Of a stretch of 64,000 bases of DNA, positions 1-13,152 are shown one piece after another (position 1 is the stretch's first letter; every line of letters starts with the position of its first letter). This DNA is from Sphingomonas sp. URHD0057 (GTDB taxonomy: Bacteria > Pseudomonadota > Alphaproteobacteria > Sphingomonadales > Sphingomonadaceae). A model generated the notes under the pieces. That model had not been told where the DNA came from. It did not search any database and saw only the letters and a list, made by a program, of their open reading frames with translations. The DNA lies in the NCBI RefSeq assembly GCF_000620665.1, contig NZ_KK211162.1:1-64000 (forward strand), written 5' to 3'. Both the position numbers and the translations under genes were made by a program.

Positions 1-1
1 C

Positions 2-1417
2 GACAGCGACAACAACTCGGTGGTGACGATCACGTTCAACGAGGCGGTGTCGAACTTCTCGAACGCCGACGTGACGGTCGCCGGCGGCACGCTGAGCGCA
101 CTCTCTTCGAGCAACGGAGGGATCACCTGGACGGGGACCTTTACGGCGACCGACGGGGTCGAGACCACCGGCTCGGTGACGGTCAACGCCGGCGGCTACA
201 ACGATGCGGCCGTCAATATCGGTGTGAGCGGAAGCGACACGGTTGCGATCGACACCAAGAACCCGACCGCGACGGTGAACATCGTCGATACGCTGCTCAA
301 CGATGGCGATCCGAATTCGGTGGTGACGATCACGTTCTCGGAGGCGGTGACGGGGTTCAGCAACGCCGATGTAACGGCCACCAACGGAACGCTTACCGCG
401 TTTACCTCCAGCGACGGGATCACATGGACGGCAACATACACTGCGAATGACGGCTTTGACGGCACCGGCAGCGTGACGCTCACGGGGCCGTACACCGACC
501 TCGTCGGGAATACGGGCGCAACTGGGGCGAATGACACCGTCACCATCGACCGGCAGGAGGCCGCTTTTACCGCCGACAACCTTCGCTTCCTCATCAATAC
601 CACGACAGAAAATGAAGGCGGTGGTGGATCGGGTGGTCAGAACATCGTCTCCGGCGCCGATCTAGGCACGTTCCAGGCCTTGGGTCTCCCCGGTACCTGG
701 ACATTCACTCTGGCGAGTCCGGTTGCGGGCTTCCAGATCACCGGCAATCATCTGATCACGACCGACACCTTGTCCAATCTGCCGGGCACAATTCTGACGA
801 TTCATGCCACCGATGGCACGACCAGCGTGGACATTCCGGTGACCGTGGCCGTCGGCACCAATGGTACCAACACGATCTCGCTCGGCACCGGCAATGACCT
901 CGGCTTCGGAATCGGCGGTAATGACACCATCACAGGTGGAAACGGAAACGACTCCCTGTCGGGCGGCTCCAACGACGACATCCTCGATGGTGGCGCGGGG
1001 AGCGACGTACTCTGGGGCGCGTCCTCCAACGACACACTGATCGGTGGCCTCGGGGCGGATGTCTTGACCGGCGGCACCGGCGACGACTTGTTCGAGTTCG
1101 TGAAGGTGGGCGCGGACAATGACCTTACTCACTACGGAGTCGATCAGATTACCGATTTCTCGAAGGTGGCGACCAACACCGACCATATCGGTCTTGATCA
1201 TAATCTCTTCGCAGGAATCGGCAGCAGCGGGACCTTGAACGCAAACTTCTTTAAGCTGACCACCGGAGCCCTCGATGCCGATGACCGGATCATTTACAAT
1301 CAGGCGACTGGCGCGCTCTTCTATGACGCGGACGGCAGCGGCTCAGGGGCGGCTATTCAGTTTGCCCAGCTAACCGCCGGAACTGTGCTCACGCCGTCCG
1401 ACTTCCTTATAATCTGA
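2..1417 (+). CDS. Secreted Ig-like/RTX repeat protein, C-terminal part
   Basis: The 5' end lies outside the window: the frame is open from base 2 without a start. Two bacterial Ig-like domains of the Big_12 kind follow each other with a period of about 100 residues (300 nt). Each begins with [11 protein letters not shown] and contains ITWT. A linker and a cadherin-like stretch follow, then RTX nonapeptides of the GGxGxD type ([18 protein letters not shown] and following, about 890-1090), which bind calcium. The end, with FDFxxxG-like acidic patches and a hydrophobic tail, is typical of substrates of type I secretion. This is probably a large adhesin or surface-layer-associated protein. The full length and any enzymatic domain cannot be seen. 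Confidence 0.85.
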
Positions 1418-1458
1418 CGAACGGAAGGCTCCCACGGCGGGCAACCTCCCACCGTTCG
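1418..1458 (+). terminator. Possible weak terminator after the RTX gene
   Basis: Directly after the stop codon, cgaacgg (1418-1424) can pair with ccgttcg (1452-1458) around a 27-base loop. There is no run of T after it, so an intrinsic terminator is uncertain. Confidence 0.3.
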
Positions 1459-1586
1459 CCGTTTCGTCGTTGCCGGGCGGCCGCTTGTCGCTTGGCAAAA
1501 CGCCCGCGACCGCTGGTCGATGGGTGCTACATATGTCGCATGCTAGATGCTTCACTCGGGGCTCCTCGAATCAGGGAGAGGTCCCC

Positions 1587-1865
1587 ATGCGTAGGTTCGT
1601 CATGTGTATCGCGTCGTTCACCCTCGTTGCGGCGGCTCCGGCGCCGGCGGCGCAAAGCCAGAGCTCGTCCGCGGCCTCGCGCTCGACTTGCGACGCCAAA
1701 TATTACGATTATCTGGTCGGCAAGAACCTCGACAGCGCGCGCGACATCAGCGGCACCAATTATCGCGTCCTCGCGCAAGGCGCCGCGGCGGGCGCCGCGC
1801 AGCCGAAGCGGATGACCGTCACCGTCGACAAGGGCAACCAGATCGTCGACGTCAGCTGCAACTGA
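1587..1865 (+). CDS. Secreted I78-family peptidase inhibitor
   Basis: This is a 92-residue exported protein. Residues 1-22 form a signal peptide (MRRFVMCIASFTLVAAAPAPA). The mature part has the layout of inhibitor family I78: an early Cys (CDAKYYDYLVGK), a central Arg (NYRVLA), then KRMTVTVDKGNQIVDVSCN with a terminal Cys that probably forms a disulfide with the first. Family members inhibit serine proteases in the periplasm or outside the cell. The start was chosen because ATG 1587 follows a purine-rich GGGAGAGG; longer in-frame starts lack a signal peptide. It is a single-gene unit between two terminators. Confidence 0.75.
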   Translation: MRRFVMCIASFTLVAAAPAPAAQSQSSSAASRSTCDAKYYDYLVGKNLDSARDISGTNYRVLAQGAAAGAAQPKRMTVTVDKGNQIVDVSCN

Positions 1866-1936
1866 CGCAAGTCGGCGCGAAGCGCGGAGCCGCTGAACCC
1901 CTCAGGCCCCGCGTTTCGCGCCGCGCCGCGCGGCGA

Positions 1937-1964
1937 AGCCTCCCGGGCGGTGGCTCGGGAGGCT
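1937..1964. terminator. Bidirectional hairpin between convergent genes
   Basis: A perfect 9-bp stem, agcctcccg (1937-1945) with cgggaggct (1956-1964), has a 10-base loop and is followed by a pyrimidine-rich tail. It lies between the convergent I78 inhibitor gene (plus) and the RcnB-like gene (minus), so it could serve both. Confidence 0.6.
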
Positions 1965-1975
1965 CCTTCTTGCCT

Positions 1976-2539
1976 TCAATAAAATACGCCGGTCACGACA
2001 TAGGCGATCCGGTGGGTGTGAATGTTCACCAGGAGCAGGTCGGGCCCGTAGCGAACCCAGCGGTAGCCGTGCGGCGGATAACCGACGTGGTGGTAATCGT
2101 CATAATAATAGGCCGACGAGAAAAGGAGCGCCGGGAGGATGTGGCCGACGGCCCACAGCCGGTAATGGTAGCCGCGCGGATAGCGGTAGTGCTTCGCGCG
2201 GATGCGCTTGAATTGATATTGATGCGGGCGATTGTAGCCGGGGCGAGCCGGCTTGGTCGGGCGGACCGGCTGGATCGATGGACGATCGGGCCGTGTCGGG
2301 CGAACCGGCTTGGTCGGACGGACCGGCTGGATCTGCGGGCGATCGGGCCGGGTCGGCCGATGCGCGCCGGGCCTGGACGGTTTCGTGGTGGGTCTTGTCG
2401 GCTTCGCCGGCCGCGCCGGCCGGACTTTGCCGGGGCGGGTCGGCTGCGTCTGCGGCTGAGCCGGTCGAGTCTGCGCCGCCGCGCCGGCGGGCGGAAGCAG
2501 CAGCGCCGCGATGGTCAGTCCAAGCATCGATCTCTTCAT
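1976..2539 (-). CDS. RcnB-family secreted protein with Pro/Arg-rich repeats
   Basis: This is a 187-residue protein with a signal peptide (residues 1-23, ending AGAAAQ). Residues 25-105 are a low-complexity region of RPTKP/RPTRPDRP repeats. The C-terminal 75 residues are aromatic and His-rich (HYRYPRGYHYRLWAVG, YYYDDYHHVGYPPHGYRWVRYGPDLLLV) and match the RcnB family. In enterobacteria RcnB is a periplasmic factor in Ni/Co homeostasis; most alphaproteobacterial members have no proven role. ATG 2539 is preferred over GTG 2545 because GAGGGG sits 6 bases before it. Confidence 0.75.
   Translation of the reverse strand: MKRSMLGLTIAALLLPPAGAAAQTRPAQPQTQPTRPGKVRPARPAKPTRPTTKPSRPGAHRPTRPDRPQIQPVRPTKPVRPTRPDRPSIQPVRPTKPARPGYNRPHQYQFKRIRAKHYRYPRGYHYRLWAVGHILPALLFSSAYYYDDYHHVGYPPHGYRWVRYGPDLLLVNIHTHRIAYVVTGVFY
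2251..2364. repeat. Tandem 57-nt repeat inside the RcnB-like gene
   Basis: Two adjacent, slightly diverged 57-nt units begin at 2251 and 2308 (gcttggtcgg, then a GGACCGGCTGGATC core). They encode a 19-residue unit of the RPTKPxRPTRPDRPxIQPV type. The period is a multiple of three, so unit number can change without a frameshift. Confidence 0.7.
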
Positions 2540-2620
2540 GTGCACCCCTCGATGCCCCTTAGTTTTAAGATCACGGAAGCTGCGCGAGGCGGACGCAGGT
2601 TCCGACCGAATCGAAATCGA

Positions 2621-3235
2621 CTAGCGCGCCAGGTATTTGCCCGCCGCGCCGATGAGGTCGCCAAGAATGCTGGCCGATGGGGCCGGTTCGGACCCGCCGC
2701 GCGCCGGAGCGGTTTGCCCGCCGAGAATGCTTCCGAGCATCCCGCTGAGACCGCCGTCCAGACTGCCGCCCGCGGCGCTCCCTTGGCCTTGCCCGGCCTG
2801 CTTCATCACATATCCGGCGGCGGCCATGGCGAGCAGCGGGAGCATCTTCTTGAGCAGCGACGGCTCGACCCCGGACTGCGACGCGGCCTGCGCGGCGACC
2901 GCGCGGCTCTCGTCCTTGGAGCCGAAAATCTGGCCGAGAATCTGATTGCCTTGGCCGACGTCGCTCGGCGCGTTCGCGGTGACGTTATCGAGCAGCCCGC
3001 CGCCGCCGAGCGCGGAGATCGTCCCGAGCAATGCGCCGAGCCCGCCGCCCGCGGCATCCGTTCCGCCACCGATCGCCGATTGCGGCTCGGCGGCCGCGGC
3101 CGGATTCTGGAACCCGGAGAGGATCGAGGGCAGAAGCGCGGCCGCGCCGGCCTCGGCGGTCGCCGGGTCGATCCCAAGCTCGCGCGAGATCGCGCCGACC
3201 GCGCCGGTCTGCTGCAGCATGTCGGTAACATTCAT
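2621..3235 (-). CDS. DUF937 family protein
   Basis: This is a 204-residue protein rich in Gly, Ala and Ser. The N-terminal pattern (MNVTDMLQQTGAVGAISRELGID, then AAALLPSILSGF) and the helical segment SGVEPSLLKKMLPLLAMAAAGYVMKQ are typical of DUF937 (YidB-like) proteins, whose biochemical function is unknown. It has no signal peptide and no clear membrane segment. It follows the dodecin gene on the same strand with a gap of 76 bases, so the two may share a transcript. Confidence 0.75.
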   Translation of the reverse strand: MNVTDMLQQTGAVGAISRELGIDPATAEAGAAALLPSILSGFQNPAAAAEPQSAIGGGTDAAGGGLGALLGTISALGGGGLLDNVTANAPSDVGQGNQILGQIFGSKDESRAVAAQAASQSGVEPSLLKKMLPLLAMAAAGYVMKQAGQGQGSAAGGSLDGGLSGMLGSILGGQTAPARGGSEPAPSASILGDLIGAAGKYLAR

Positions 3236-3311
3236 TGCTGTTCTCCTCGTTGGCGGAGGATTCCGGTGCGGATGCTCAGGTCAACGCAAACTGGCCGAAG
3301 CCGAAGAGCGG

Positions 3312-3512
3312 TCAGGATACGACGAAGGTGACGGCGAGCGTGACCCGCCACTCCGTAACCTTGTTGTCGCCCACGATGACCTTGGTGTCCTTGACCCACG
3401 CGCCCTCGATTCCCTTGACGGTTTCGGACGCCTTGGTGATCCCCTCGCGGATCGCGGCTTCGATCCCGCCGGGCGAGCTGGCGATGATTTCGATGGTCTT
3501 GGCAACCGACAT
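3312..3512 (-). CDS. Dodecin family flavin-binding protein
   Basis: At 66 residues it has the family's length. The pattern SVAKTIEIIASSPGGIEAAIREGITKASETVKGI, then GAWVKDTKVIVGDNKVTEWRVTLAVTFVV, is that of the beta-alpha-beta-beta dodecin fold, which assembles into hollow dodecamers that store or buffer riboflavin/FMN. Trp in GAW is at the position used for flavin stacking in some members. An AGGAG-type site lies just before ATG 3512. Confidence 0.85.
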   Translation of the reverse strand: MSVAKTIEIIASSPGGIEAAIREGITKASETVKGIEGAWVKDTKVIVGDNKVTEWRVTLAVTFVVS

Positions 3513-3545
3513 ATGCGGTCTCCTCCGGCGGGCTCTGGGCGCCCA

Positions 3546-4023
3546 TTTTTAACCCAAGTCAACTTGGCTCATCAATTGCGAGCAACATCGGCCGGCATTG
3601 CCGGAATTTGTGACGATTGAATGACGGGGTGGCGCGCTGGCTCCTGTTCGCGGGCGAGTGCGGTCCGTCGAAATGGCGCGAATGTTCGCGAATGTTCGCA
3701 GTGACGAGCGCTTTCGGGCGGTCTCGAAACGCAGCAAACGCAGCGAGCCTATGCGTGCGCGTGCGCGCGAGGGCAGTACGCGAAAAACGATTTCACGCAG
3801 GATTGGAGATGACCTGAGGTCAACGCTCGACGGCCTGAAGATCGGTCGTAACTCGGGTGGAGGACTCATCCGCCAGTCTATGACTCAAGGGGTGGGCTGT
3901 AGGACAGCACAAAATGCCGAGCGTAGGGGAGCGCTTTGTTCAAGCAAACGGGAGCCAGCGCGTAGAGCCTTCGAATGCCCGGACGGCGGGGCGAGAGGTC
4001 TCAGCCGAGCGAACTGTTCGACG
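3546..4023. other. Gene-poor stretch at the island edge
   Basis: These 478 bases hold no open frame with coding character; the short frames are Arg/Ser-rich noise. Visible items are a tandem gcgaatgttc repeat (about 3680-3700), an alternating gcgtgcgcgtgcgcgcg run (about 3750-3766) and a 22-base motif at 3723-3744 that recurs at 34831. No tRNA, integrase remnant or clear att site was seen. The stretch marks the junction between normal chromosome and the AT-richer island. Confidence 0.5.
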
Positions 4024-4842
4024 TCACCGATTCACTCCATGACGTTCCCGTATCCGGAACCCCGGATCACCACGCTGATCAGCTGGATAATGTTGGCATC
4101 GCCCTGACCAATTCGCGAGACGATGGCTCTCCGAGACAGTGCCGATATTTCCATCGTACTGAAGCAATGCCGTTTCCACAGGGGTCGGCTGCCAAGGATT
4201 CAGCATCTGTATGATGAGCCCAACGGCCGTCGAGGCAAGCACACCGTTCGGCCAGACGACCTGTGGATTGCCGCCCGCGGCACCATAATTCCGTGCTTCG
4301 GTCGCTACCGCGGTCTCCGTGACGATACCTAGACAGCGTAGGCACGGGCCGCCGACGAACGAGAGCGCAACTTGACCAGCGATCAGATGGCCTGACGGGA
4401 TTTCGTGCACATCCATGCCGATGTCGATGAATGGAATCAGGTACCGGCGACAGAACGCATCCAGTTCATCCTTCGCCCTCACTTGATCGAGACAGCCGAC
4501 GATGATGTCGCATGCCTTAAGAATGTCGAAGCAAGCCTGCCATTCACCCGAAAACGAGATCACTCGCGCGGTAGCGTTGACGCGTCTGATTTGCCGCTTG
4601 GCGATCGAAGTCTTCTTACGACGAAGCAGCACGTCGAGGCGAGTGCCGCCTATGAGCCGGTTGAGATTGGTGGAACTGATGCGGTCGGGATCCACGATAA
4701 CAACTTCGCCGATCCCGACATGGCCAAGTTGCTGACAAACGTGCGACCCGCCTCCGCCAAGACCAACAACTCCAACGCGTGCCGACCCAAGAAGCTCGGA
4801 GCTATTAGAACCAAGAAAGGACTGTCGCGAAAGCCAGTCCAT
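4024..4842 (-). CDS. ThiF/E1-like adenylyltransferase of a Ubl system
   Basis: This 272-residue protein has the E1/MoeB/ThiF Rossmann fold: the nucleotide loop VGLGGGGSH (26-34), the acidic end of strand 2 VIVDPD (48-53), the N59/R62 pair, basic RRKKT (74-78) and D119 in CLDQVRAK. CLRC (167-170) and C249 near the end may bind zinc as in MoeB/ThiF. It should adenylate the C terminus of the small Ubl encoded at 5671-5934 and pass it to the E2-like protein. It lacks the large extra domains of eukaryotic E1. It is the last gene of the operon, and its ATG overlaps the JAB stop by one base. Assignment to the fold is firm; the substrate is inferred from context. Confidence 0.85.
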   Translation of the reverse strand: MDWLSRQSFLGSNSSELLGSARVGVVGLGGGGSHVCQQLGHVGIGEVVIVDPDRISSTNLNRLIGGTRLDVLLRRKKTSIAKRQIRRVNATARVISFSGEWQACFDILKACDIIVGCLDQVRAKDELDAFCRRYLIPFIDIGMDVHEIPSGHLIAGQVALSFVGGPCLRCLGIVTETAVATEARNYGAAGGNPQVVWPNGVLASTAVGLIIQMLNPWQPTPVETALLQYDGNIGTVSESHRLANWSGRCQHYPADQRGDPGFRIRERHGVNR

Positions 4843-5348
4843 TATCGCACTCCGAACTTGAGCAACGGCGCACCGACAAAGGCAAACTCTGCAACTTCGG
4901 TGGACCCTAGTCCCCTGTTGAGCCAGAAACGGCCTGCAGCTCGGTCGCCGCTGAAAACGATCATGCCGTGCGGCATTGACGGAATTGCCTCGAAGAACCC
5001 TGGGACAAATTCGCTCCCGCTCCGTAGGTCAATCCCGCTGAAACCCGGAATGCCGGAACCACCATGCGAGTGAATGTGCACGAGGCCAGACCGAGTCCGG
5101 TAGGCACGCTCCAGCGCTTTTCGAAAAGCCGGACCTCCAATTCGGGCGCCGCAAGATGGGTCCATTTCGTAGTCTTCGTCAGCAACCGGAGAATAGTTGC
5201 GAGCGAGCAAGAGCAGTCGCTGATCGGGCAGCGAAGTAGCGCCTACCATCAGAAAGCCGACTCGCTCATGCGCGAACGTGTGCCGTCTGCTCAGGTCCGC
5301 ATGGATTTGCAGGACGAGCGATCTGGGCAGTTTAAGGTGCAGTTTCAT
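4842..5348 (-). CDS. JAB/JAMM-family metallo-isopeptidase of a Ubl system
   Basis: This 168-residue protein has the JAMM zinc site: Glu28 in AHERVGFL, H93-S-H95, and S104/D107 in FSGID. The spacing between the second His and the Ser is 8 residues, one more than in canonical HxHx7Sx2D. JAB proteins of this group deconjugate ubiquitin-like proteins or trim their precursors. The gene overlaps the E2-like gene upstream by 4 bases and the E1-like gene downstream by 1 base, so the four products are probably made in fixed ratio. No signal peptide is present, so it should act in the cytoplasm. Confidence 0.85.
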   Translation of the reverse strand: MKLHLKLPRSLVLQIHADLSRRHTFAHERVGFLMVGATSLPDQRLLLLARNYSPVADEDYEMDPSCGARIGGPAFRKALERAYRTRSGLVHIHSHGGSGIPGFSGIDLRSGSEFVPGFFEAIPSMPHGMIVFSGDRAAGRFWLNRGLGSTEVAEFAFVGAPLLKFGVR

Positions 5349-5674
5349 GCGAACGCCCGCAGATGTGCGAGAATCATGTCAAGCCACGGGAGGCTCGCGG
5401 CCACGCCCTTCCACGAGCACGCATGCCATTTCCGGCCGGCAATGGAATACACCTTCCAATTGGCGGCTTTAGGCGCTTGGACTGCGTCGGACAGGAAGAA
5501 GCGGCTTTCGTACCCGTCGCGCGCAGCCGGCCAAAGGAGCACGTCCCGAACAATGGTGCGACCCTGTGACCGTATCGGCACCTGAGGCACGTAGACGACC
5601 GGCTGCTGACCGTCCTGCCAAAGCTCAGCAGCCGAATACGCCTGTTTGATCTGACGAAACATCTCCGAGGTCAC
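5345..5674 (-). CDS. Minimal E2-like Ubl-conjugating protein
   Basis: This 109-residue protein has no strong family signature, but its order of elements resembles a shortened bacterial E2/UBC fold: an N-terminal helix, strands around VVYVPQVPIR and RDVLLWPA, then WKVYSIAGRKWHACSW and a final helix (LPWLDMILAHLRAF). Cys86 in WHACSW is the only Cys and sits where E2 enzymes keep the thioester Cys, before W and an SLP motif. It overlaps both neighbours by 4 bases. The E2 call rests mainly on position between a Ubl and a JAB gene and on this single Cys. An unrelated small accessory protein remains possible. Confidence 0.65.
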   Translation of the reverse strand: MTSEMFRQIKQAYSAAELWQDGQQPVVYVPQVPIRSQGRTIVRDVLLWPAARDGYESRFFLSDAVQAPKAANWKVYSIAGRKWHACSWKGVAASLPWLDMILAHLRAFA

Positions 5675-5934
5675 GACGATTGGCCAACCGGTGGATGGGA
5701 GGCAAATCTCATGTCGTCTCGAATGACGATCTTCCGCGTCGGATCAACGTCATCAAAGCCGCCGTCTTCGTTAACGACATCCAGAATGTAGCCAGCGGGC
5801 ACCGAAAAAATTGCCGCCAGCTCCGCGCCTTCATGCGCACCTGGCTTCAGGTCAAAGGCCGTTTCTCCGTAATAGACCCGGATCGTACGACCGTGCCGAT
5901 CGCCAGGCTCCTTCTCCTCATGCTGAGCTGCCAT
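5671..5934 (-). CDS. Ubiquitin-like modifier (single beta-grasp, multiubiquitin type)
   Basis: This 87-residue protein is the first gene of the operon. After a charged N terminus, residues 17-80 fit a beta-grasp: TIRVYYGETAFDL strands, helix HEGAELAAIF, then VPAGYILDVVNEDG and RKIVIRDDMRFASH. The stretch around residues 48-80 resembles prokaryotic multiubiquitin domains, but only one domain is present. The tail is SHPPVGQSS, so the only Gly near the end is G84, followed by three residues. A JAB trimming step could expose it. It is preceded by AAAGGA with a 6-base spacing and by a good sigma-70 promoter. The modifier role is inferred from fold pattern and operon partners. Confidence 0.75.
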   Translation of the reverse strand: MAAQHEEKEPGDRHGRTIRVYYGETAFDLKPGAHEGAELAAIFSVPAGYILDVVNEDGGFDDVDPTRKIVIRDDMRFASHPPVGQSS

Positions 5935-5990
5935 TTTTAGTCCTTTGCGTCTCTCGGAGGCCCACCTTGAGCCCGCCGTCCTCGTTATGA

Positions 5991-6017
5991 GGTGAAGTGA
6001 ATTTACTCATAGGTGAA
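5991..6017. promoter_or_regulatory. Candidate operator: paired GGTGAA sites
   Basis: GGTGAA occurs at 5991-5996 and 6012-6017, 21 bases (two helical turns) apart, on either side of the -10 element of the Ubl promoter. The same hexamer recurs at 7184-7189 upstream of the XRE gene. This is the layout expected of a repressor site, but it rests on three short matches only. Confidence 0.35.
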
Positions 6018-6028
6018 AAAAAAGTCAA
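6000..6028 (-). promoter_or_regulatory. Sigma-70 promoter of the Ubl operon
   Basis: On the minus strand TTGACT (6028-6023) and TAAATT (6005-6000) are separated by exactly 17 bases that include a T tract. Transcription would start near 5993, about 60 bases before the Ubl start codon. This means the Ubl operon can be transcribed separately from the XRE-ImmA genes upstream. Confidence 0.65.
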
Positions 6029-6202
6029 CTATGGCGAATTCACGACACTAACGAGTGCCGTGAGTTATTCAGCGCGGAGCTCTGGCGCGGCCGCCGCTGG
6101 TACGCTGGCGGATAGGTCGAAATCCAATGTAAGCAGGCGGCAGGAAACGTCCCGCGCAGGAATATCAGCGATTAAGGACGACCAAAAGTTGAAGGTCGGT
6201 GG

Positions 6203-6736
6203 TTAGAAGGGCAGGTCCAAGTTCAACACGCTCGCGCGGACCTCAGCCGCCCTCCTGCTCACCCTGAAGCGCGTCAGAATTTCCCGGACGCAGCTGCACC
6301 GGCGCACTTCACCCTCGGGCATGAGAAACGCGCTCGCGAAAGTGTCAGCTTGCCATTCGGCATTCACATAAGGCTTGACGCTATTGCCGCGGGCCATCTG
6401 CGCGCTGCTTCCTGTATGCATGAGCAGATGGCCTAATTCGTGCGCGAGGGTAAATGCATACCTGGCTTGGCCCTGACGGGCAGCCTCGTAGCAAGTTAGT
6501 CCCATCTTTATGGATCGCTCCGTCATTGAGGTAGTTGCCTCCGCTTCGCCCAGTTCGCGATCGGCAACTACCTCAAAGCTGTACTCGTCCAGAACTCTGG
6601 GAAGGACCAACTCAAGGAGCCGAAGCATATCAACTGCTGAACCGTCCGAAACACCGAGCGCCCTACGAACCGCTAAAGCATATTCTTCAATCTGCTTACG
6701 CGATCGAGGCGCCACGATGATCGGATTGTTAGCCAC
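6203..6736 (-). CDS. ImmA/IrrE-family metallopeptidase
   Basis: This 177-residue protein carries the zinc protease motif HELGH (residues 99-103) in YAFTLAHELGHLLMH. The downstream EWQADTFASAFLMP block is typical of ImmA/IrrE peptidases, which cleave a partner XRE repressor and so switch on its regulon. GTG 6736 is preferred because GGAGG lies 5 bases before it; ATG 6748 (181 aa, preceded by AAAGG) is the alternative. Either start overlaps the end of the XRE gene, so the two are translationally coupled. The Ubl operon begins 268 bases downstream in the same direction. Confidence 0.85.
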   Translation of the reverse strand: MANNPIIVAPRSRKQIEEYALAVRRALGVSDGSAVDMLRLLELVLPRVLDEYSFEVVADRELGEAEATTSMTERSIKMGLTCYEAARQGQARYAFTLAHELGHLLMHTGSSAQMARGNSVKPYVNAEWQADTFASAFLMPEGEVRRCSCVREILTRFRVSRRAAEVRASVLNLDLPF

Positions 6737-7091
6737 CCCTTCCTCCATTGATGACCTTTGCGATGCGTTCTTTTGCATCTGGCGAAAGTCGAGCGAACTC
6801 GGTTGCGAGCGCGTCTGCCAAAACCTTATCATTGGCGTTGGCGCGATCGCCTAGCTGTATTTTGAACTCACTGGTCGAGATAACAGCATGATGTCGGACG
6901 TCGACAAGTTCGACGTCAGTAAGGCGGAGGGCGGCACGTAGCTTATCAACGAAGCCGTCTGGAATCGGCTTCTTGCCAGTTTCGATTTGGCTCAAATAGC
7001 TGGGGCTAATCTTAAGCCGTTCGGCCATGTCACCAAGCAAGAGCTCGCGATCGATGCGGAGCTTTCGCAAGGCTTTTCCGAATGGCGTCAT
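6729..7091 (-). CDS. XRE-family DNA-binding regulator
   Basis: This 120-residue protein has an N-terminal helix-turn-helix (residues 5-60: GKALRKLRIDRELLLGDMAE, then ISPSYLSQIETGKKPIP). Its C-terminal half is Asp/Ala-rich with no recognised domain and could hold the cleavage site for the ImmA-like partner. The start codon is preceded by GAAAGGAAAT. By analogy with ImmR/ImmA and DdrO/IrrE pairs it should repress promoters nearby until cleaved; the Ubl operon is the obvious local target, but that is inference. Confidence 0.85.
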   Translation of the reverse strand: MTPFGKALRKLRIDRELLLGDMAERLKISPSYLSQIETGKKPIPDGFVDKLRAALRLTDVELVDVRHHAVISTSEFKIQLGDRANANDKVLADALATEFARLSPDAKERIAKVINGGRGG

Positions 7092-7168
7092 TACTCATTT
7101 CCTTTCGCTTTCGGGATGCCCCCGCAGCGAATGTCTGCGCCCATTTGTCGCATGATTGTCCCCCTGTT

Positions 7169-7190
7169 CTTACCCACACATTGGGTGAAG
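7169..7190. promoter_or_regulatory. Imperfect palindrome upstream of the XRE gene
   Basis: cttaccca and tgggtgaag form an imperfect inverted repeat, 8 pairs with one bulge, about 80-100 bases before the XRE start codon. It contains the GGTGAA hexamer seen twice at the Ubl promoter and could be an autoregulatory operator. The clear -10/-35 pair of the XRE-ImmA genes could not be fixed. Confidence 0.35.
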
Positions 7191-7251
7191 GTCTTTTACG
7201 CTCAAGTGAATTTTCCTACAAGTCCAGTGATTAATTTACACACTTCGATAG

Positions 7252-7285
7252 AAAAAGGCCCCGCATCGCTGCGGGGCCTTCGTGT
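7252..7285. terminator. Intrinsic terminator of pnp (bidirectional)
   Basis: An 8-bp GC stem, ggccccgc (7257-7264) with gcggggcc (7271-7278), and a 6-base loop are followed on the minus strand by five T residues and on the plus strand by a T-rich tail. It lies about 105 bases after the pnp stop and separates pnp from the island. Confidence 0.85.
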
Positions 7286-7328
7286 TTTTGTGATAAGGCA
7301 TTGCGCGGCTCACGCCGCTTACCCCTCC

Positions 7329-7372
7329 ACCACCTTTCAGGTGGTCCCCCTCCCCGAGCGAAGCTCAGGGAG
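7329..7372. repeat. Paired small palindromes after pnp
   Basis: Two hairpins stand side by side: accacct/aggtggt (7329-7335, 7339-7345) and ctccccgagc/gctcagggag (7350-7359, 7363-7372, one mismatch). The CCCCTCC-rich sequence resembles dispersed palindromic repeats common in intergenic DNA of sphingomonads. It may stabilise the 3' end of the pnp mRNA. Confidence 0.5.
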
Positions 7373-7383
7373 GAGTTGACGGT

Positions 7384-9771
7384 TCAGTCGTTGTCGCCGT
7401 CGCCGGTGAGGAACGCCGGAGCGAACTCGGGCGCGGGGCCTTTGTCTTCGCCGCCACCTTCGCGTTCACGCCGGGGGCCGCGGTCGCGGTCACCACCGCC
7501 GCGCGGTCCACGATCGCGGTCGCCGCCGCGACCTTCGCCGCCACGTCCACCGCCACCGCCGCCTTCACGCCGCGGGCCACGGTCACGGCCGCCGCCGCGA
7601 TGGCGATCACCACGATCGCCACGCGGGCCACGGTCGCCGCCTTCACGCGGTTCGCGCGGGGGGCGGGTGTCGGGGATTTCCTCGCCGGTTTCCTGGTCGA
7701 CCAGGCGCATCGACAGGCGGACCTTGCCGCGCTGGTCGACCTCGACCAGCTTGACCTTGACCTCCTGGCCTTCGCTGAGGACGTCGCGGACGTTCTCGAC
7801 CCGCTCGTTCTTGATCTCGCTGACGTGGACCAGCCCGTCCTTGCCCGGCATGAAGGTCACGAACGCGCCGAAATCGACGATGCTGGCGACCTTGCCGGTG
7901 TAGATGGTGCCGGGCTCGGGCTCGGCGACGATGCCGCGGATCCACTGGCGCGCGGCCTCGATCTGGCTCAAGTCGGACGAGCTGATCTTGATCACGCCCT
8001 CGTCGTCGATGTCCACTTTCGCGCCGGTCTCGGCGACGATCTCGCGGATGACCTTGCCGCCGGTGCCGATCACTTCGCGGATCTTGTCCTTGGGGATCTG
8101 CATCGTCTCGATCCGCGGCGCATGGGCGCTGAGCTCCTCACGGGTGTGATCGAGCGCCTTGGCCATTTCGCCGAGGATGTGGGCGCGGCCGTCCTTCGCC
8201 TGGGCGAGCGCGGTCTTCATGATCTCCTCGGTGATCCCGGCAACCTTGATGTCCATCTGCAGCGAGGTGATGCCGTTGGAGGTGCCGGCGACCTTGAAGT
8301 CCATGTCGCCGAGATGATCCTCGTCGCCGAGGATGTCGCTGATCACCGCGAAGTCCTTGCCTTCGAGGATCAGGCCCATGGCGATGCCGGCGACCGGACG
8401 CTTGAGCGGAACGCCGGCGTCCATGAGTGCAAGCGAGCCGCCGCACACCGTCGCCATCGACGAGGACCCGTTGCTCTCCGTAATGTCGGAGAGGACGCGG
8501 ATCGTGTACGGGAACTCCTCGTTGCTCGGCAGCATCGGGCGAAGCGCGCGCCAGGCGAGCTTGCCGTGGCCGGTTTCGCGCCGCGACGGAGCGCCGAAGC
8601 GCCCGACTTCACCGACCGAGTAAGGCGGGAAGTTATAGTGCAGCATGAAGCGCGAGTAGGAGAGGCCCTCCAGCCCGTCGATCATCTGCTCGGACTCCTT
8701 GGTCCCGAGCGTGGTCGAAACGATCGACTGGGTCTCCCCGCGGGTGAACAGCGCCGAGCCGTGCGTGCGCGGCAGGAAGCCGACGCTGATCTCGATCGGG
8801 CGCACGGTCTTGGTGTCGCGGCCGTCGATGCGGCGGCCGTCCTTGAGGATGGCGATGCGGACGACGTCGGCCTCGATCGACTTGACCAGCTTGGCCGCGA
8901 CCAGCTGCTCCTGCGGGTCGCTGTCGGCGAACGCCTCGGCGGCCTTGGCGCGGACAGCGGCGAGCGCGGTCTGGCGCTCCTGCTTGTTGGTCAGCTTGTA
9001 GGCGGCCTCGACATCGTTGCCGATGAGCGTCTTGAGCTTCTTCTTGATCGCGTCCTTCTCGGCGCTGACCGCGAGATCCCACGGCTCCTTGGCAGCCTGC
9101 TCGGCGAGCTTGATGATCGCCTCGATCACCGGCTGCAGCGAGCGGTGAGCGAACATGACCGCGCCGAGCATCTCGTCCTCGGACAGCTCCTTGGCTTCGG
9201 ATTCGACCATCATCACGGCGTTGCGCGTACCGGCGACGACGAGGTCGAGCTGGCCTTCCGCGATCTGCGTCTGGGTCGGGTTGAGGATATAGTCGCCGTC
9301 AGCAAAGCCGACGCGAGCGGCGCCGATCGGGCCCATGAACGGGACGCCGGACAGGGTCAGAGCGGCCGATGCGGCGATCATCGCCAGCACGTCCGGCTCG
9401 TTCTCGCCGTCGTAGGAGAGGACCTGCGCGATGCACAGGATCTCGTTGTAGAACCCTTCGGGGAACAGCGGGCGGATCGGGCGATCGATCAGGCGGCTGG
9501 TCAGCGTTTCCTTTTCGGTGGCGCCGCGCTCGCGCTTGAAGAAGCCGCCGGGGATGCGCCCCGCGGCCGAGAATTTCTCCTGATAGTGGACGGTCAGCGG
9601 GAAGAAGTCCTGGCCCGGCTTGACCGACTTGGCGGCGGTGACCGCGCAGAGGACGACGGTTTCGCCCAGGGTCGCGAGAACCGCGCCGTCGGCCTGGCGG
9701 GCAACGCGGCCCGTTTCGAGCTTGAGGGTCTTACCGCCCCACTCGATTTCGACTGTTTTGGTATTGAACAT
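7384..9771 (-). CDS. pnp: Polyribonucleotide nucleotidyltransferase (PNPase)
   Basis: This 795-residue enzyme carries out phosphorolytic 3'-5' RNA decay. It has two RNase PH domains (first about 1-220 with [12 protein letters not shown]; second about 320-540 with TRGETQ, the catalytic-core GRREIGHG-like [15 protein letters not shown], and [19 protein letters not shown]), a KH domain ([20 protein letters not shown], about 555-610) and an S1 domain ([20 protein letters not shown], about 620-690). The last 90 residues are an Arg/Gly/Asp-rich tail not found in the standard ~700-residue enzyme. It follows rpsO, the usual gene order. Confidence 0.98.
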
Positions 9772-9901
9772 TTGATTTCCTTCACCCCGCGGCCGGATGC
9801 CGGCGGGGACAGCTAGCGCGGGTAATCCGACCCGCTGCGGTCCGGGGCCTTGAAGCGCCCCTAAGGCCGAACCGCCGAATTGCGGATGGCCCCGATGTGC
9901 G

Positions 9902-9924
9902 AAAGGCGCCGGATGGGCGCCCTT
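9902..9924 (-). terminator. Hairpin between rpsO and pnp
   Basis: Immediately after the rpsO stop, aagggcgcc and ggcgccttt form a 9-bp stem (one G-T pair) around catcc. The T run is short, so it may attenuate or act as an RNase site rather than stop transcription fully, as known for rpsO-pnp in other bacteria. Confidence 0.5.
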
Positions 9925-9928
9925 GCGG

Positions 9929-10198
9929 TTATTTGCGAAGGCCGAGCTTGGCGATGAGACCGGTGTAACGGCTCTCGTCTTCGCGGCGCAGATAATCGAG
10001 CAGCGAACGGCGCTTGTTGACCATCATCAACAGCCCGCGCCGGCTATGGTTGTCCTTGGCGTGGCTCTTGAAATGCTCGGTCAGCGTCTGAATGCGGCTG
10101 GTGAGGATCGCGATCTGGACTTCGGGCGAACCCGTATCTTCCTTCGCGCGGGCATGTTCCTTGATCACTTCCTGCTTGCGCTCGGCGGTAATCGACAT
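9929..10198 (-). CDS. rpsO: 30S ribosomal protein S15
   Basis: At 89 residues it has the standard length. The family motifs [49 protein letters not shown] and [12 protein letters not shown] are all present. S15 binds 16S rRNA helices 20-22 early in 30S assembly. The gene follows truB by 17 bases with a clear AACAGGAGTG ribosome site. Confidence 0.98.
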
Positions 10199-10215
10199 CG
10201 TGTCACTCCTGTTTT

Positions 10216-11136
10216 CTAAAGGTTAAAGCCCCGGACGACCTTGAGGCCGTCGGCCGTGGCTTCGACCAAAGCGACCGGAATTGCTTCCAAAGTCGCCAGG
10301 CTCAGCCCCGGCGGTGCGGGGATGCCGACAAGCCTCTGCCCATGACGGAGCAACTCGGCTTGGCGGCTAGTGACGGGGAGGGCCGGGATGTCGTCCAGCG
10401 CCGCTTGCAGCGGCAATACCGCCCGCGTCAGTTGGCGCGCCTTAGCCAATTCCTCGAGAAAGTCCAGTGAAACGGCCTGTTCGAGGGAGAAGGGCCCGGC
10501 GCGGGTCCTTCTTAGATAGGAAACGTGGCCGACCGTTCCAAGCGCATGGGCGATGTCGCGGGCAAGGCTGCGGACATAGGTGCCCTTGGAAACGGTGGCG
10601 AGCAACGAAGCCTCGTTCGCGCAATCGGAGACGACGCGCAGCTCATGGATGGTCACGTCGCGCGGCTTGAGCTCAACCGTTTCGCCGGCGCGGGTGCGGG
10701 CGTAAGCGGGCTTGCCGTAGACCTTCAGTGCCGAATGAGCCGGCGGGATCTGGCTGATCTTGCCGGTGAAGCCGGGCAGGATCGCCTGGACTTGTCCGGC
10801 GGTCGGGATGACGGCGCTGGTGGCGACGACTTCGCCTTCGGCGTCGAGCGTATCGGTTTCCTCGCCGAAGCGGATGGTGAAGGCATATTGCTTGGTCGCG
10901 CCGAGCATTCGGCCGGCGACCTTGGTCGCTTCGCCGAGCGCGATCGGCAGGACCCCGCACGCCAGCGGATCGAGCGTGCCGCCGTGGCCGACCTTGGTCT
11001 TGGGCTCGCCCGCTTCGCGCAGCAGGCGCTTGATCGCACTGACCGCCTGGGTCGAGCCAAGGCCGGCGGGCTTGTCGAGAATGATCCAGCCGTGGAGCAT
11101 GGGCAGGCGATAAGCACCGATCCGCGGCTTGGCCAT
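10216..11136 (-). CDS. truB: tRNA pseudouridine(55) synthase
   Basis: This 306-residue enzyme makes pseudouridine 55 in tRNA. Motif I is [18 protein letters not shown]. The catalytic Asp lies in [35 protein letters not shown] and [17 protein letters not shown] are also present. ATG 11136 has no strong ribosome site; an internal ATG at 11100 (MLHGWI) would also keep the whole catalytic domain. It precedes rpsO and pnp, but rbfA, its usual neighbour, lies 5.4 kb away. Confidence 0.95.
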
Positions 11137-11217
11137 GCCGCGCTAATGACAAGCCCTCCGGTCAGCCCTACGGTGCGCATTGTCGTCAATCCGACGCTCC
11201 TTGGGGGAAGCAAGCGG

Positions 11218-13152
11218 ATGGACCGGAATTCGGGCCGTGGTGAACCGCCGTCACGCGGGGAGGACTATGTCTTCCTCAGCTACGCGCGCGCCGACGAGAA
11301 GGCGGCCAGAGCGATCATCAAGCTAATCGAGCGCGCGGGATTCCGCGTCTGGTGGGACGGGCTGATTCCGAGCGGCGAGCGGTTCAGCGCGAAGATCAGC
11401 GAAGCGCTCGAAGCCGCAGGTGCGGTGGTCGTGTTGTGGTCGGCAAATTCTGCCAAATCGAACTGGGTCCAGGACGAAGCCTCGTTCGCCCGCGACCATC
11501 AGCGGCTGGTTCCGATTCTGATAGACGGATCCGAGCCCCCGCTCGGCTTCCGCCAGCTGCAGTGTGTCGATGTTTCGCGGGGCGGGCTGCGCGCCAGCAA
11601 TCCTGCGATGTTCCGAGCGCTGCAGACGATCGCCGACATGATGGACCGACCATTGTCTGCGGCGGTCAATCAAAGACGAGGCGGGATTGACCGGCGTGGC
11701 GTGATCACGGCGGGCGCTGCGGCCGGCGTCGCCGCGGTCGGATTCGGCGGCTGGCAACTTCTGCGGCCTGGCCGCGCCGGTGCGAACACGATCGCGGTGC
11801 TGCCGTTCGACAACCTCAGCGGGGAGGCCGGAAAGGGATATCTTTCCGACGGCCTTGCGGCGGAACTGCGCTCGACGCTGTCCCGCAACCCGCTGCTGAG
11901 AGTGGTCGGCCAAGCCTCGTCCAACGAATTCCGCGACCGTAAGGACGGCAGCCGGAGCATCGCGCGCAAGCTGGGGGTCGCCAACTTGCTCGACGGCAAT
12001 GTCCTTTCCGAGGGCGGGATTGTGCGGATCGGGATCGAGTTGATCGACGGGGATAATGGCTTCAGCCGCTGGTCGAAGCGGTTCGAACTGCCGATGGGCA
12101 ATATCATCGAGGTGCAGGAGGAGATTGCGAGTTCCGTCGGTGCCGCGCTTGCGGTGCGCCTGAGCGACAACAGCGAGCAATCGCCGGAGCGATCGGGTGG
12201 GACCAGGAATGTCGCGGCGTTCGATGCCTATCTTCGCGGGAAGGATTTGTTCGATTCCCAGCGCGACGAAGACAGTGATCGCGGCGCCCTTGTGCAGTTT
12301 ACGGATGCGGTGCAACTCGATCCCAAATACGCCGCGGCCCGGGCGGCGCGATCGCGCACTCTTGCAGTAATCGCCAATGCTTATGCACAAGCAACCGAGC
12401 GGCGACCGCTTTACGACGAGGCGGTCGCGGAAGCGCGACACGCGGTCGCGACGGCCAATCAGTTTGCCGATGCTTATGCCGCGCTCGGCTATGCGCTGTT
12501 CTACGGCAAGCTCGACATCATTGCCGCCGACGAGCCTTACGAGAAAGCCAGCCAGCTCGGCGGGTGGAGCGCGGATGTGCTGGGCCTTTGCGCAATGTAT
12601 CGCGCACGGCGGCGGCAGTTCGATCGTGCGCTTCCCGCGATCGAACGCGCGGCTTCTCTCGACCCGCTGAACCCTACCGTGTTCAAGAACCGCGGACGGA
12701 TCAAGTTTGCAGCGGGCGATTACGCGGCCGCGATCGAGGCGGCGCGGCGTGCGATCGATCTCAATCTCAAGGTTGGCGGAGCGCACGGCGACATCGGAAA
12801 CGCGCTGCTGTTCCAGGGCCACACGCGAGATGCGGCGGCCGAATTCGCTCAGGAAAAGGTACAGCTGCTCGCTCTTCCAGGCCGCGCGTTCGTCGCCATT
12901 CGCGAGGGTAAGGCCGCCGAAGCGCAAGGCGCATATGACGAGCTCGTGAAGACGCAGGGTGACAATGGACTTTACCAGCAGGCGCAGGTGCTGGCGCAGT
13001 GGAACAAGGTTCCGCAGGCGCTCGACGTGCTCGACAAGGCCGTGAATGAGCAGGATTCAGGCCTGGTCTATCTGCTCAGCGATCCGTTCCTCCAGCCGCT
13101 GCAGAACCAGCCGCGCTTCAATTCGCTTCTGAAACGATTGCGCTTCGTCTAA
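11218..13152 (+). CDS. TIR domain - membrane segment - TolB-like - TPR protein
   Basis: This is a 644-residue protein. Residues 16-140 are a TIR domain (DYVFLSYARADEKAARAI, then AGAVVVLWSANSAKSNWVQDEASFARD); Glu87 in WVQDE is at the position of the catalytic Glu of NAD-cleaving TIRs. Residues 158-183 (RRGVITAGAAAGVAAVGFGGW) look like a membrane anchor. Residues 190-320 form the TolB/FlgO-like domain (NTIAVLPFDNLSGEAGKGYLSDGLAAELRSTLS) found with bacterial adenylate cyclases, and residues 330-640 are TPR-like helices. ATG 11218 follows TTGGGGGAAG. It is divergent from truB with an 81-base gap. Signalling or defence are both possible; the sequence does not decide. Confidence 0.8.
   Translation: MDRNSGRGEPPSRGEDYVFLSYARADEKAARAIIKLIERAGFRVWWDGLIPSGERFSAKISEALEAAGAVVVLWSANSAKSNWVQDEASFARDHQRLVPILIDGSEPPLGFRQLQCVDVSRGGLRASNPAMFRALQTIADMMDRPLSAAVNQRRGGIDRRGVITAGAAAGVAAVGFGGWQLLRPGRAGANTIAVLPFDNLSGEAGKGYLSDGLAAELRSTLSRNPLLRVVGQASSNEFRDRKDGSRSIARKLGVANLLDGNVLSEGGIVRIGIELIDGDNGFSRWSKRFELPMGNIIEVQEEIASSVGAALAVRLSDNSEQSPERSGGTRNVAAFDAYLRGKDLFDSQRDEDSDRGALVQFTDAVQLDPKYAAARAARSRTLAVIANAYAQATERRPLYDEAVAEARHAVATANQFADAYAALGYALFYGKLDIIAADEPYEKASQLGGWSADVLGLCAMYRARRRQFDRALPAIERAASLDPLNPTVFKNRGRIKFAAGDYAAAIEAARRAIDLNLKVGGAHGDIGNALLFQGHTRDAAAEFAQEKVQLLALPGRAFVAIREGKAAEAQGAYDELVKTQGDNGLYQQAQVLAQWNKVPQALDVLDKAVNEQDSGLVYLLSDPFLQPLQNQPRFNSLLKRLRFV

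Follow-up and report, generated by a model that had tools for sequence, protein, structure and literature searches.

Operons that join a ubiquitin-like protein (Ubl), an E2/RWD-like domain, a JAB protease and an E1 were described as operon type 6e by Iyer, Burroughs and Aravind (2006; PMC1779556). According to the passages of that paper on type 6e, the Ubl consists of one to three repeats, with a solo Ubl in one species (Amac), and the E2/RWD-like domain has no catalytic Cys, is called catalytically inactive and is occasionally encoded by a stand-alone gene between the Ubl and JAB/E1 genes. The same passages present these operons as patchy and mobile, and mention a Zn-finger partner (C-x3-C-x35-38-H-x2-C) as "also seen", that is, accessory rather than required (PMC1779556). 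Here, such a set of genes, 1.9 kb long and encoding four separate proteins, is analyzed in Sphingomonas sp. URHD0057; the term window designates the whole stretch considered, the first 64,000 nucleotides of contig NZ_KK211162.1. Taken together, the evidence makes it probable that this operon belongs to the 6e/Bub class, of the kind set out in the 2006 passages, that it transfers its Ubl without a catalytic Cys, and that it likely functions in defense. An earlier reading of the letters of the window (the original prediction) had seen in it a newly minimal relative of Bil systems; the evidence points to the 6e/Bub lineage instead. Interest lies in a corrected active site, a testable cysteine-free mechanism and a reduction to a single Ubl.

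Comparison with described systems

The closest solved relatives are the proteins of the Citrobacter Bub system, found among the matches as PDB entries 9ea4, 9ea5, 9ea8, 9eae and 9eav. Bub conjugation chemistry is not known to use Cys thioesters, and the sequences of the window's family agree with such a chemistry. BubA (Ubl), BubB (E2 fold) and BubCD (JAB plus E1) each have a counterpart in the window, where the E2-like protein is predicted to have the BubB fold and the E1 is closest to BubD among solved E1s. However, BubC and BubD form one chain in Citrobacter, whereas the window has four separate proteins, and identity is very low. The Bub-related locus L095 also differs from the window, with Ubl and E2 in one open reading frame (ORF) and JAB and E1 in another. 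BilABCD shares the set of Ubl, E2, JAB and E1 genes, and 8u38, a multi-ubiquitin protein labelled Ubl-BilA, is found among the fold matches of the window Ubl. The E1 and E2 of Bil have catalytic cysteines, whereas the family of the window has neither a family-wide E2 Cys nor an E1 Cys at the MoeB-type position.

Likeness to type 6e, as far as the 2006 passages define it, extends to all four parts: a predicted beta-grasp Ubl with a repeat number within one to three; a predicted UBC/UEV fold with no family-wide Cys (n=78), yet with Cys86 in the window and six clade mates; a JAB adjoining the E1 with a 1-base overlap; and an E1 without a rhodanese domain (272 aa, with ThiF as the sole Pfam match above cut-off, 1.5e-30). 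The window differs in that JAB and E1 are separate adjacent genes instead of the usual 6e fusion, in its single Ubl, and in the Zn-finger partner, for which no ORF of at least 50 codons was found in window positions 1-12000, even with the spacing widened to 33-40. The raw pattern of this partner occurs in 7 of the 80 related loci described below.

The gene set and its relatives

The four minus-strand genes overlap by 4, 4 and 1 bases in the ORF list, and their coordinates and overlaps are exactly those of the original prediction. A Shine-Dalgarno-like AAAGGA box stands ahead of the ATG of the Ubl gene, and the E2-like gene begins with GTG. The glycine loop (GLGGGG) and CxxC that had been noted in the E1 are present, in agreement with the ThiF match. 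The JAB matched Prok-JAB weakly (E 0.041, under cut-off), with 2 of 9 family members at E <= 0.01, and neither the window Ubl nor the window E2-like protein matched any Pfam model when searched on its own. For these two proteins, the proposed folds are supported by structure prediction, without a sequence match: a beta-grasp for the 87-aa Ubl (predicted local distance difference test, pLDDT, 79.6) and a UBC/UEV-type fold for the 109-aa E2-like protein (pLDDT 94.3), with fold matches that agree in both cases. Both outcomes bear out what the original prediction had expected of such models. Moreover, Multi_ubiq matches 25 of 49 family Ubl segments at E <= 0.1.

A search with the JAB gave nine plasmid records from alphaproteobacterial genera (43-54% identity), of which eight were examined, seven of them annotated. 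All seven annotated stretches contain, in the same order, a protein of about 235 aa called "multiubiquitin domain-containing" or hypothetical, a hypothetical protein of 109-110 aa and a ThiF protein, and an annotated gene covers the JAB in five; in the unannotated stretch (L009), the four ORFs are visible. Genome contigs were scanned with an E1 profile, the best 80 of 148 relatives among 220 pattern matches being retained. Because the scan selected for the patterns VG[LV]GGG[GN]SH and PQV[VI]W[PS]NG, conservation of the E1 residues within them is built in; neither pattern covers Y186, the Zn ligands or any position of the E2-like protein, the JAB or the Ubl. The 80 loci come from Proteobacteria, Acidobacteria, Verrucomicrobia, Bacteroidetes, Melainabacteria, Planctomycetes, Nitrospira and others. 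Four protein profiles find all four proteins in 72 of them, and five more (L065, L078, L079, L087 and L092) are recovered with a profile built on the last Ubl repeat, leaving three incomplete loci: L049 (partial JAB and E1), L080 (E1 at a contig end) and L081 (no Ubl found). Co-occurrence of the four genes is thus more than chance, with the other three proteins encoded in 77 of 80 loci chosen by E1 alone. The original prediction had named homologues that never co-occur as evidence against itself; instead, the conjugation gene set it had recognized recurs throughout this sample.

All three junctions overlap or abut in 63 of 81 four-gene loci (window excluded; starts chosen by script), and five of the 80 loci (L069, L078, L079, L090, L091) encode JAB and E1 in a single ORF. 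A stand-alone short E2-like protein and an E1 lacking extra domains recur in the 6e/Bub lineage, so the compactness put forward as novel is shared. At L132 (1492-1911, 1866-2600 and 152-1996, minus strand), a separate Ubl ORF and a separate E2 accompany a fused JAB-E1; this E2 matches PF14462 at 7.9e-12 and bridges Prok-E2_E and the E2-like family of the window. Broken copies were also seen: the JAB is split across two frames in Rhizobium leguminosarum RCAM1365, plasmid p_4 (L011, 4866-5506), and in Bradyrhizobium sp. Leo170 (L022, 5413-6011), where the Ubl gene is split likewise.

The distribution of the family is patchy. Apart from the window's own genome, the 297 genomes of the family sample gave one clear and one weak match (5.1e-4) to the E2-like protein, and in the 288 genomes of the class sample its profile matched once, weakly. 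Among the other 60 genomes of the same genus, the JAB has no clear match and one weak match at 8.2e-4. No relative was found in viral contigs searched with E2-like and E1 patterns, nor any match in phage records searched with the JAB; in PHROGs, the E1 alone gives matches, to which no function is assigned. A sulfur-carrier or metabolic pathway of ThiS/ThiF type, operating without protein conjugation, is very improbable in view of this patchiness and of the JAB and E2-fold genes as near-constant partners. Nor do the annotations beside the operon, in the seven plasmid stretches that carry them, include a gene for the synthesis of thiamine, molybdopterin or cysteine.

Active-site residues of the E2-like protein, E1 and JAB

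Conservation was counted over distinct sequences, window included, at columns where the window has a residue, for E2-like proteins of 100-125 aa (n=78), JABs of 150-220 aa (n=75) and E1s of 255-330 aa (n=83); this excluded fused JAB-E1 proteins and the short JAB of L022 but included a fragment from the broken JAB of L011. Y55, R58, W73, W83, S87 and H104 are invariant in the E2-like sequences, and N72 is kept in 75 of them. S87 directly follows the predicted strand 81-86 and lies ahead of the last helix, 97-106. By our reading, N72 would occupy the site of the Asn in the canonical E2 HPN motif, and S87 that of the catalytic Cys.

In the original prediction, the E2-like protein carried a single Cys in E2-like position; the corresponding model is a canonical Bil-type system in which an E1 thioester is taken over by Cys86 and a phage structural protein is tagged. 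It is a tempting reading, given the similar gene set and the fact that Cys86 is the sole Cys of the window protein and adjoins the invariant Ser87. The residue does exist, but its position is weakly kept: Cys86 is found in 9 of the 78 sequences and 14 have no Cys whatsoever, which makes a cysteine E2 of the Bil kind unlikely. With the Bub proteins as closest solved relatives and Tyr in all E1s at the position of the MoeB-type Cys (see below), the Bil-type scheme as a whole appears quite implausible, and the residues of interest become Ser87, His104 and E1 Tyr186.

A different alternative gives the E2-like protein the part proposed in 2006, that of a UEV/RWD-like adaptor with a structural role only, and lets the E1 alone move the Ubl from the adenylate to the target. 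This we regard as doubtful, though a possibility to be taken seriously. After BubB, the best fold match of the E2-like protein (6% identity in the alignment), TSG101 UEV domains are the next best, and the 2006 passages on type 6e term the domain catalytically inactive (PMC1779556). However, the conservation of Ser87, right after the strand before the last helix, along with His104 and Asn72, is more than a scaffold seems to need. The Ser87 column is moreover matched in all of six Prok-E2_E type sequences.

In the E1, C167, C170, C249, H251 and Y186 are invariant across the 83 sequences, and the Cys and His residues likely form a zinc site. C111 is kept in 77 of 83, and at no further window position is Cys found in more than 50. 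Y186 aligns with the Cys of a MoeB-type protein from the same genome (identified by eye and by E1 match), in a column which we take to be the catalytic Cys position of ThiF/MoeB, and with a Tyr in the BubD-like protein of L095, a Tyr that L095 and Citrobacter BubCD share. Among 25 matches to solved proteins, Citrobacter BubCD was the best (E 1.9e-19), with a tRNA threonylcarbamoyladenosine dehydratase close behind (2.7e-18). The sequence CxHY at the second metal pair of the E1 was considered as a sign of decay and rejected: relatives carry CxHY, CxHH, CxHR or CxHC, with C249 and H251 invariant. In the JAB, the JAMM residues named by the original prediction are all present and nearly always kept (Glu28 in 74, Ser104 in 73, and His93, His95 and Asp107 in all of the 75 sequences).

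Several observations weigh against a cysteine-free operon with a defense role. Seven of the nine Cys86 sequences (window, L016, L023, L024, L025, L037, L043) fall in the window's clade of 29, leaving L044 and L089 as the only others; Cys86 may have a lineage-specific role, and this clustering is also a point in favor of Bil-type transfer. The His104 column is matched in just two of the six Prok-E2_E type sequences, which weakens the proposed Ser-His pair and speaks for the adaptor. In the BubD-like protein of L094, the corresponding Tyr sits two residues earlier than Y186. Finally, Pfam finds ordinary genes as well among the ORFs that flank related loci.

A single Ubl repeat

The operon is distinguished mainly by its Ubl, which appears as one unit against about three in the nearest relatives, a feature missed by the original prediction. 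In an E1 tree of 83 rows, the window lies inside a supported set of 29 rows (95/90, from a bootstrap that had yet to settle fully). The other 28 rows are labelled three-repeat by protein length (198-374 aa), the last-repeat profile finding N-terminal repeats weakly; for L022 (198 aa, split gene) the number three was assigned manually. The window's row alone has one repeat. Because its clade mates are three-repeat by this measure, the single repeat of the window Ubl is best explained by a loss of repeats in this lineage.

Whether such a loss inactivated the system, leaving a decaying copy, has to be considered, since the window Ubl is the shortest of the clade and the window E1 likewise (272 aa vs 276-319 aa, two of those 28 loci, including L022, being possibly cut or split). 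Decay is nonetheless unlikely. The start is intact, the Shine-Dalgarno-like box and overlapping genes are present, and the invariant residues are kept. Nine other single-Ubl systems occur in the same tree set, all outside the window's clade, and a short Ubl is also suggested for some of the eight rows in which the first pass had found none. Furthermore, tblastn with the N-terminal parts of nine relatives against window 5935-7100, upstream of the Ubl gene, found no remnant of lost repeats at E <= 0.01 (best 0.32).

The C-terminus of the Ubl reads G-x-[SA]-[SA] in 80 of 82 proteins and strictly G-x-S-S in 75. The aligned sequence of 9d59, a solved multi-ubiquitin chain, ends in NNG, and by analogy with it the JAB would cleave after Gly84. 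By their titles, the solved multi-ubiquitin entries 9d59 and 9d5b are filaments; a single-Ubl copy should build no assembly that needs N-terminal repeats. This raises the question of whether the multi-Ubl assemblies of solved relatives are needed for function, and with its single Ubl the compact system lends itself to biochemistry as a naturally minimal construct.

Proposed mechanism

Under cysteine-free conjugation of the 6e/Bub class, the JAB would trim the Ubl after the invariant Gly84, with loss of the Gln-Ser-Ser tail. The E1, judging from its ThiF match and conserved residues, would bind ATP and the Ubl and adenylate the new C-terminus. Since the E1 and the E2-like protein both lack a canonical catalytic Cys that is common to the family, the Ubl probably bypasses the usual E1 and E2 thioesters. 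It might then form an oxyester with the invariant Ser87 of the E2-like protein, possibly with the help of His104, or go straight to a hydroxyl or amine group on the target, with the E2-like protein presenting the Ubl or the target. The same JAB could remove the tag. The neighboring XRE/ImmA pair might repress the operon and release it upon a stress signal, by analogy with CapH/CapP. A more specific proposal, advanced quite tentatively, is that unfused four-gene 6e operons form a cysteine-free branch in which the Ubl is bound as an oxyester to Ser87 of the short E2-like protein, with assistance from His104 and Asn72, and that the operon in the window is a natural single-Ubl reduction within a three-Ubl clade. 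If true, tandem Ubl repeats and any filament would be dispensable for the core cycle of conjugation and deconjugation. The role of the system is likely antiphage or anti-plasmid defense.

Genomic setting, regulators and origin

Table 1. Features of the operon and of the surrounding island (positions in the window)
Feature	Position	Strand	Remarks
E1/ThiF-type adenylyltransferase, BubD-like	4024..4842	minus	272 aa; assigned by Pfam ThiF, Citrobacter BubCD match, conservation and alignment; probable Zn ligands C167, C170, C249, H251; Y186 at MoeB-type Cys position
JAB/JAMM metalloprotease, BubC-like	4842..5348	minus	168 aa; E28, H93, H95, S104, D107
E2-like protein, UBC/UEV fold, BubB-like	5345..5674	minus	109 aa; GTG start; no family-wide Cys; invariant Y55, R58, W73, W83, S87, H104
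Ubl, BubA-like, Multi_ubiq family	5671..5934	minus	87 aa; single beta-grasp domain; C-terminus G84-Q-S-S
ImmA/IrrE (M78) metallopeptidase, CapP-like, probable regulator	6203..6832	minus	Pfam Peptidase_M78 9.2e-15
XRE/helix-turn-helix (HTH) repressor, CapH-like, probable regulator	6729..7091	minus	Pfam HTH_31 1.2e-10
Probable horizontally acquired island, downstream of pnp	4024..7091		Low G+C, low G+C at third codon positions (GC3)

The arrangement of an HTH repressor and an M78 peptidase beside a defense-like operon resembles CapH/CapP of CBASS, in which CapP cleaves CapH upon DNA damage. PADLOC capP matches the ImmA gene product at 1.1e-16 and capH the XRE protein at 1.5e-8; however, RmrA models (2.1e-14, for ImmA) and another HTH model (HTH_VI, 5.4e-11, for XRE) score similarly. 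Within 4 kb of the operon, ImmA and XRE occur together at 35 of 90 loci, ImmA alone at nine, XRE alone at nine and neither at 37, where the 90 loci include the window and near-copies and the last class includes loci ending at a contig edge. The XRE-ImmA linkage, offered in the original prediction as novel, is therefore a recurrent pairing. It is mostly divergent from the operon in relatives and co-directional in the window.

A defense-island setting is supported, though not proved, by the genes around related loci. Their 74 flank ORFs match 214 PADLOC families at E <= 1e-10 (families that overlap one another), as compared with 22 families for an unmatched control, 74 same-genus ORFs located downstream of pnp. 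The models found in the flank ORFs include IetA (4 ORFs), RT-SbcB (3), MkoA (3), IetS (2) and PD-T4-6 (2). Annotated plasmid neighbors comprise toxin-antitoxin genes, integrases or transposases and nuclease-helicase pairs. Downstream of the E1 in L012 (6574-9941) and L013 (6549-9928), a gene for an ATP-binding protein and one for an S8 peptidase are annotated, a pair that may be compared with the IetA/IetS matches at other loci.

Positions 4024-7091 were probably acquired horizontally, which fits both their base composition and the lack of a clear JAB match in the other 60 same-genus genomes. G+C is 57.1%, against 65.4% for the whole window, with just 2 of 305 same-size windows lower, and GC3 is 0.56-0.71 in the six island genes, far under the 0.80-0.89 of pnp, truB and a DUF937-like gene. 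Among the regions downstream of pnp in the same genus, 16 stretches were compared, and hardly anything past pnp aligns to the window. At L114 (421-723, genome G592), pnp and a match to window 7252-7281, in the region of the pnp terminator, are followed about 180 bases on by a 95-base match to window 3894-3988; this short evidence is suggestive of an empty site without the island. The dodecin-like, DUF937-like and RcnB-like neighbors (labelled by eye) have no tblastn match at E <= 1e-4 in the same 16 stretches. The 66-aa dodecin-like ORF lies on the far side of the island (3312-3512, minus strand), in a region that seems variable. Elsewhere in the window, as judged by eye, a long ORF at 10525-13152 (plus strand), with a true start that is probably internal, encodes a TIR-like stretch and then a TPR-like region, and positions 20-1417 (plus strand) hold the C-terminal part of a repetitive Ig-like/RTX-type protein that seemingly enters from before the window.
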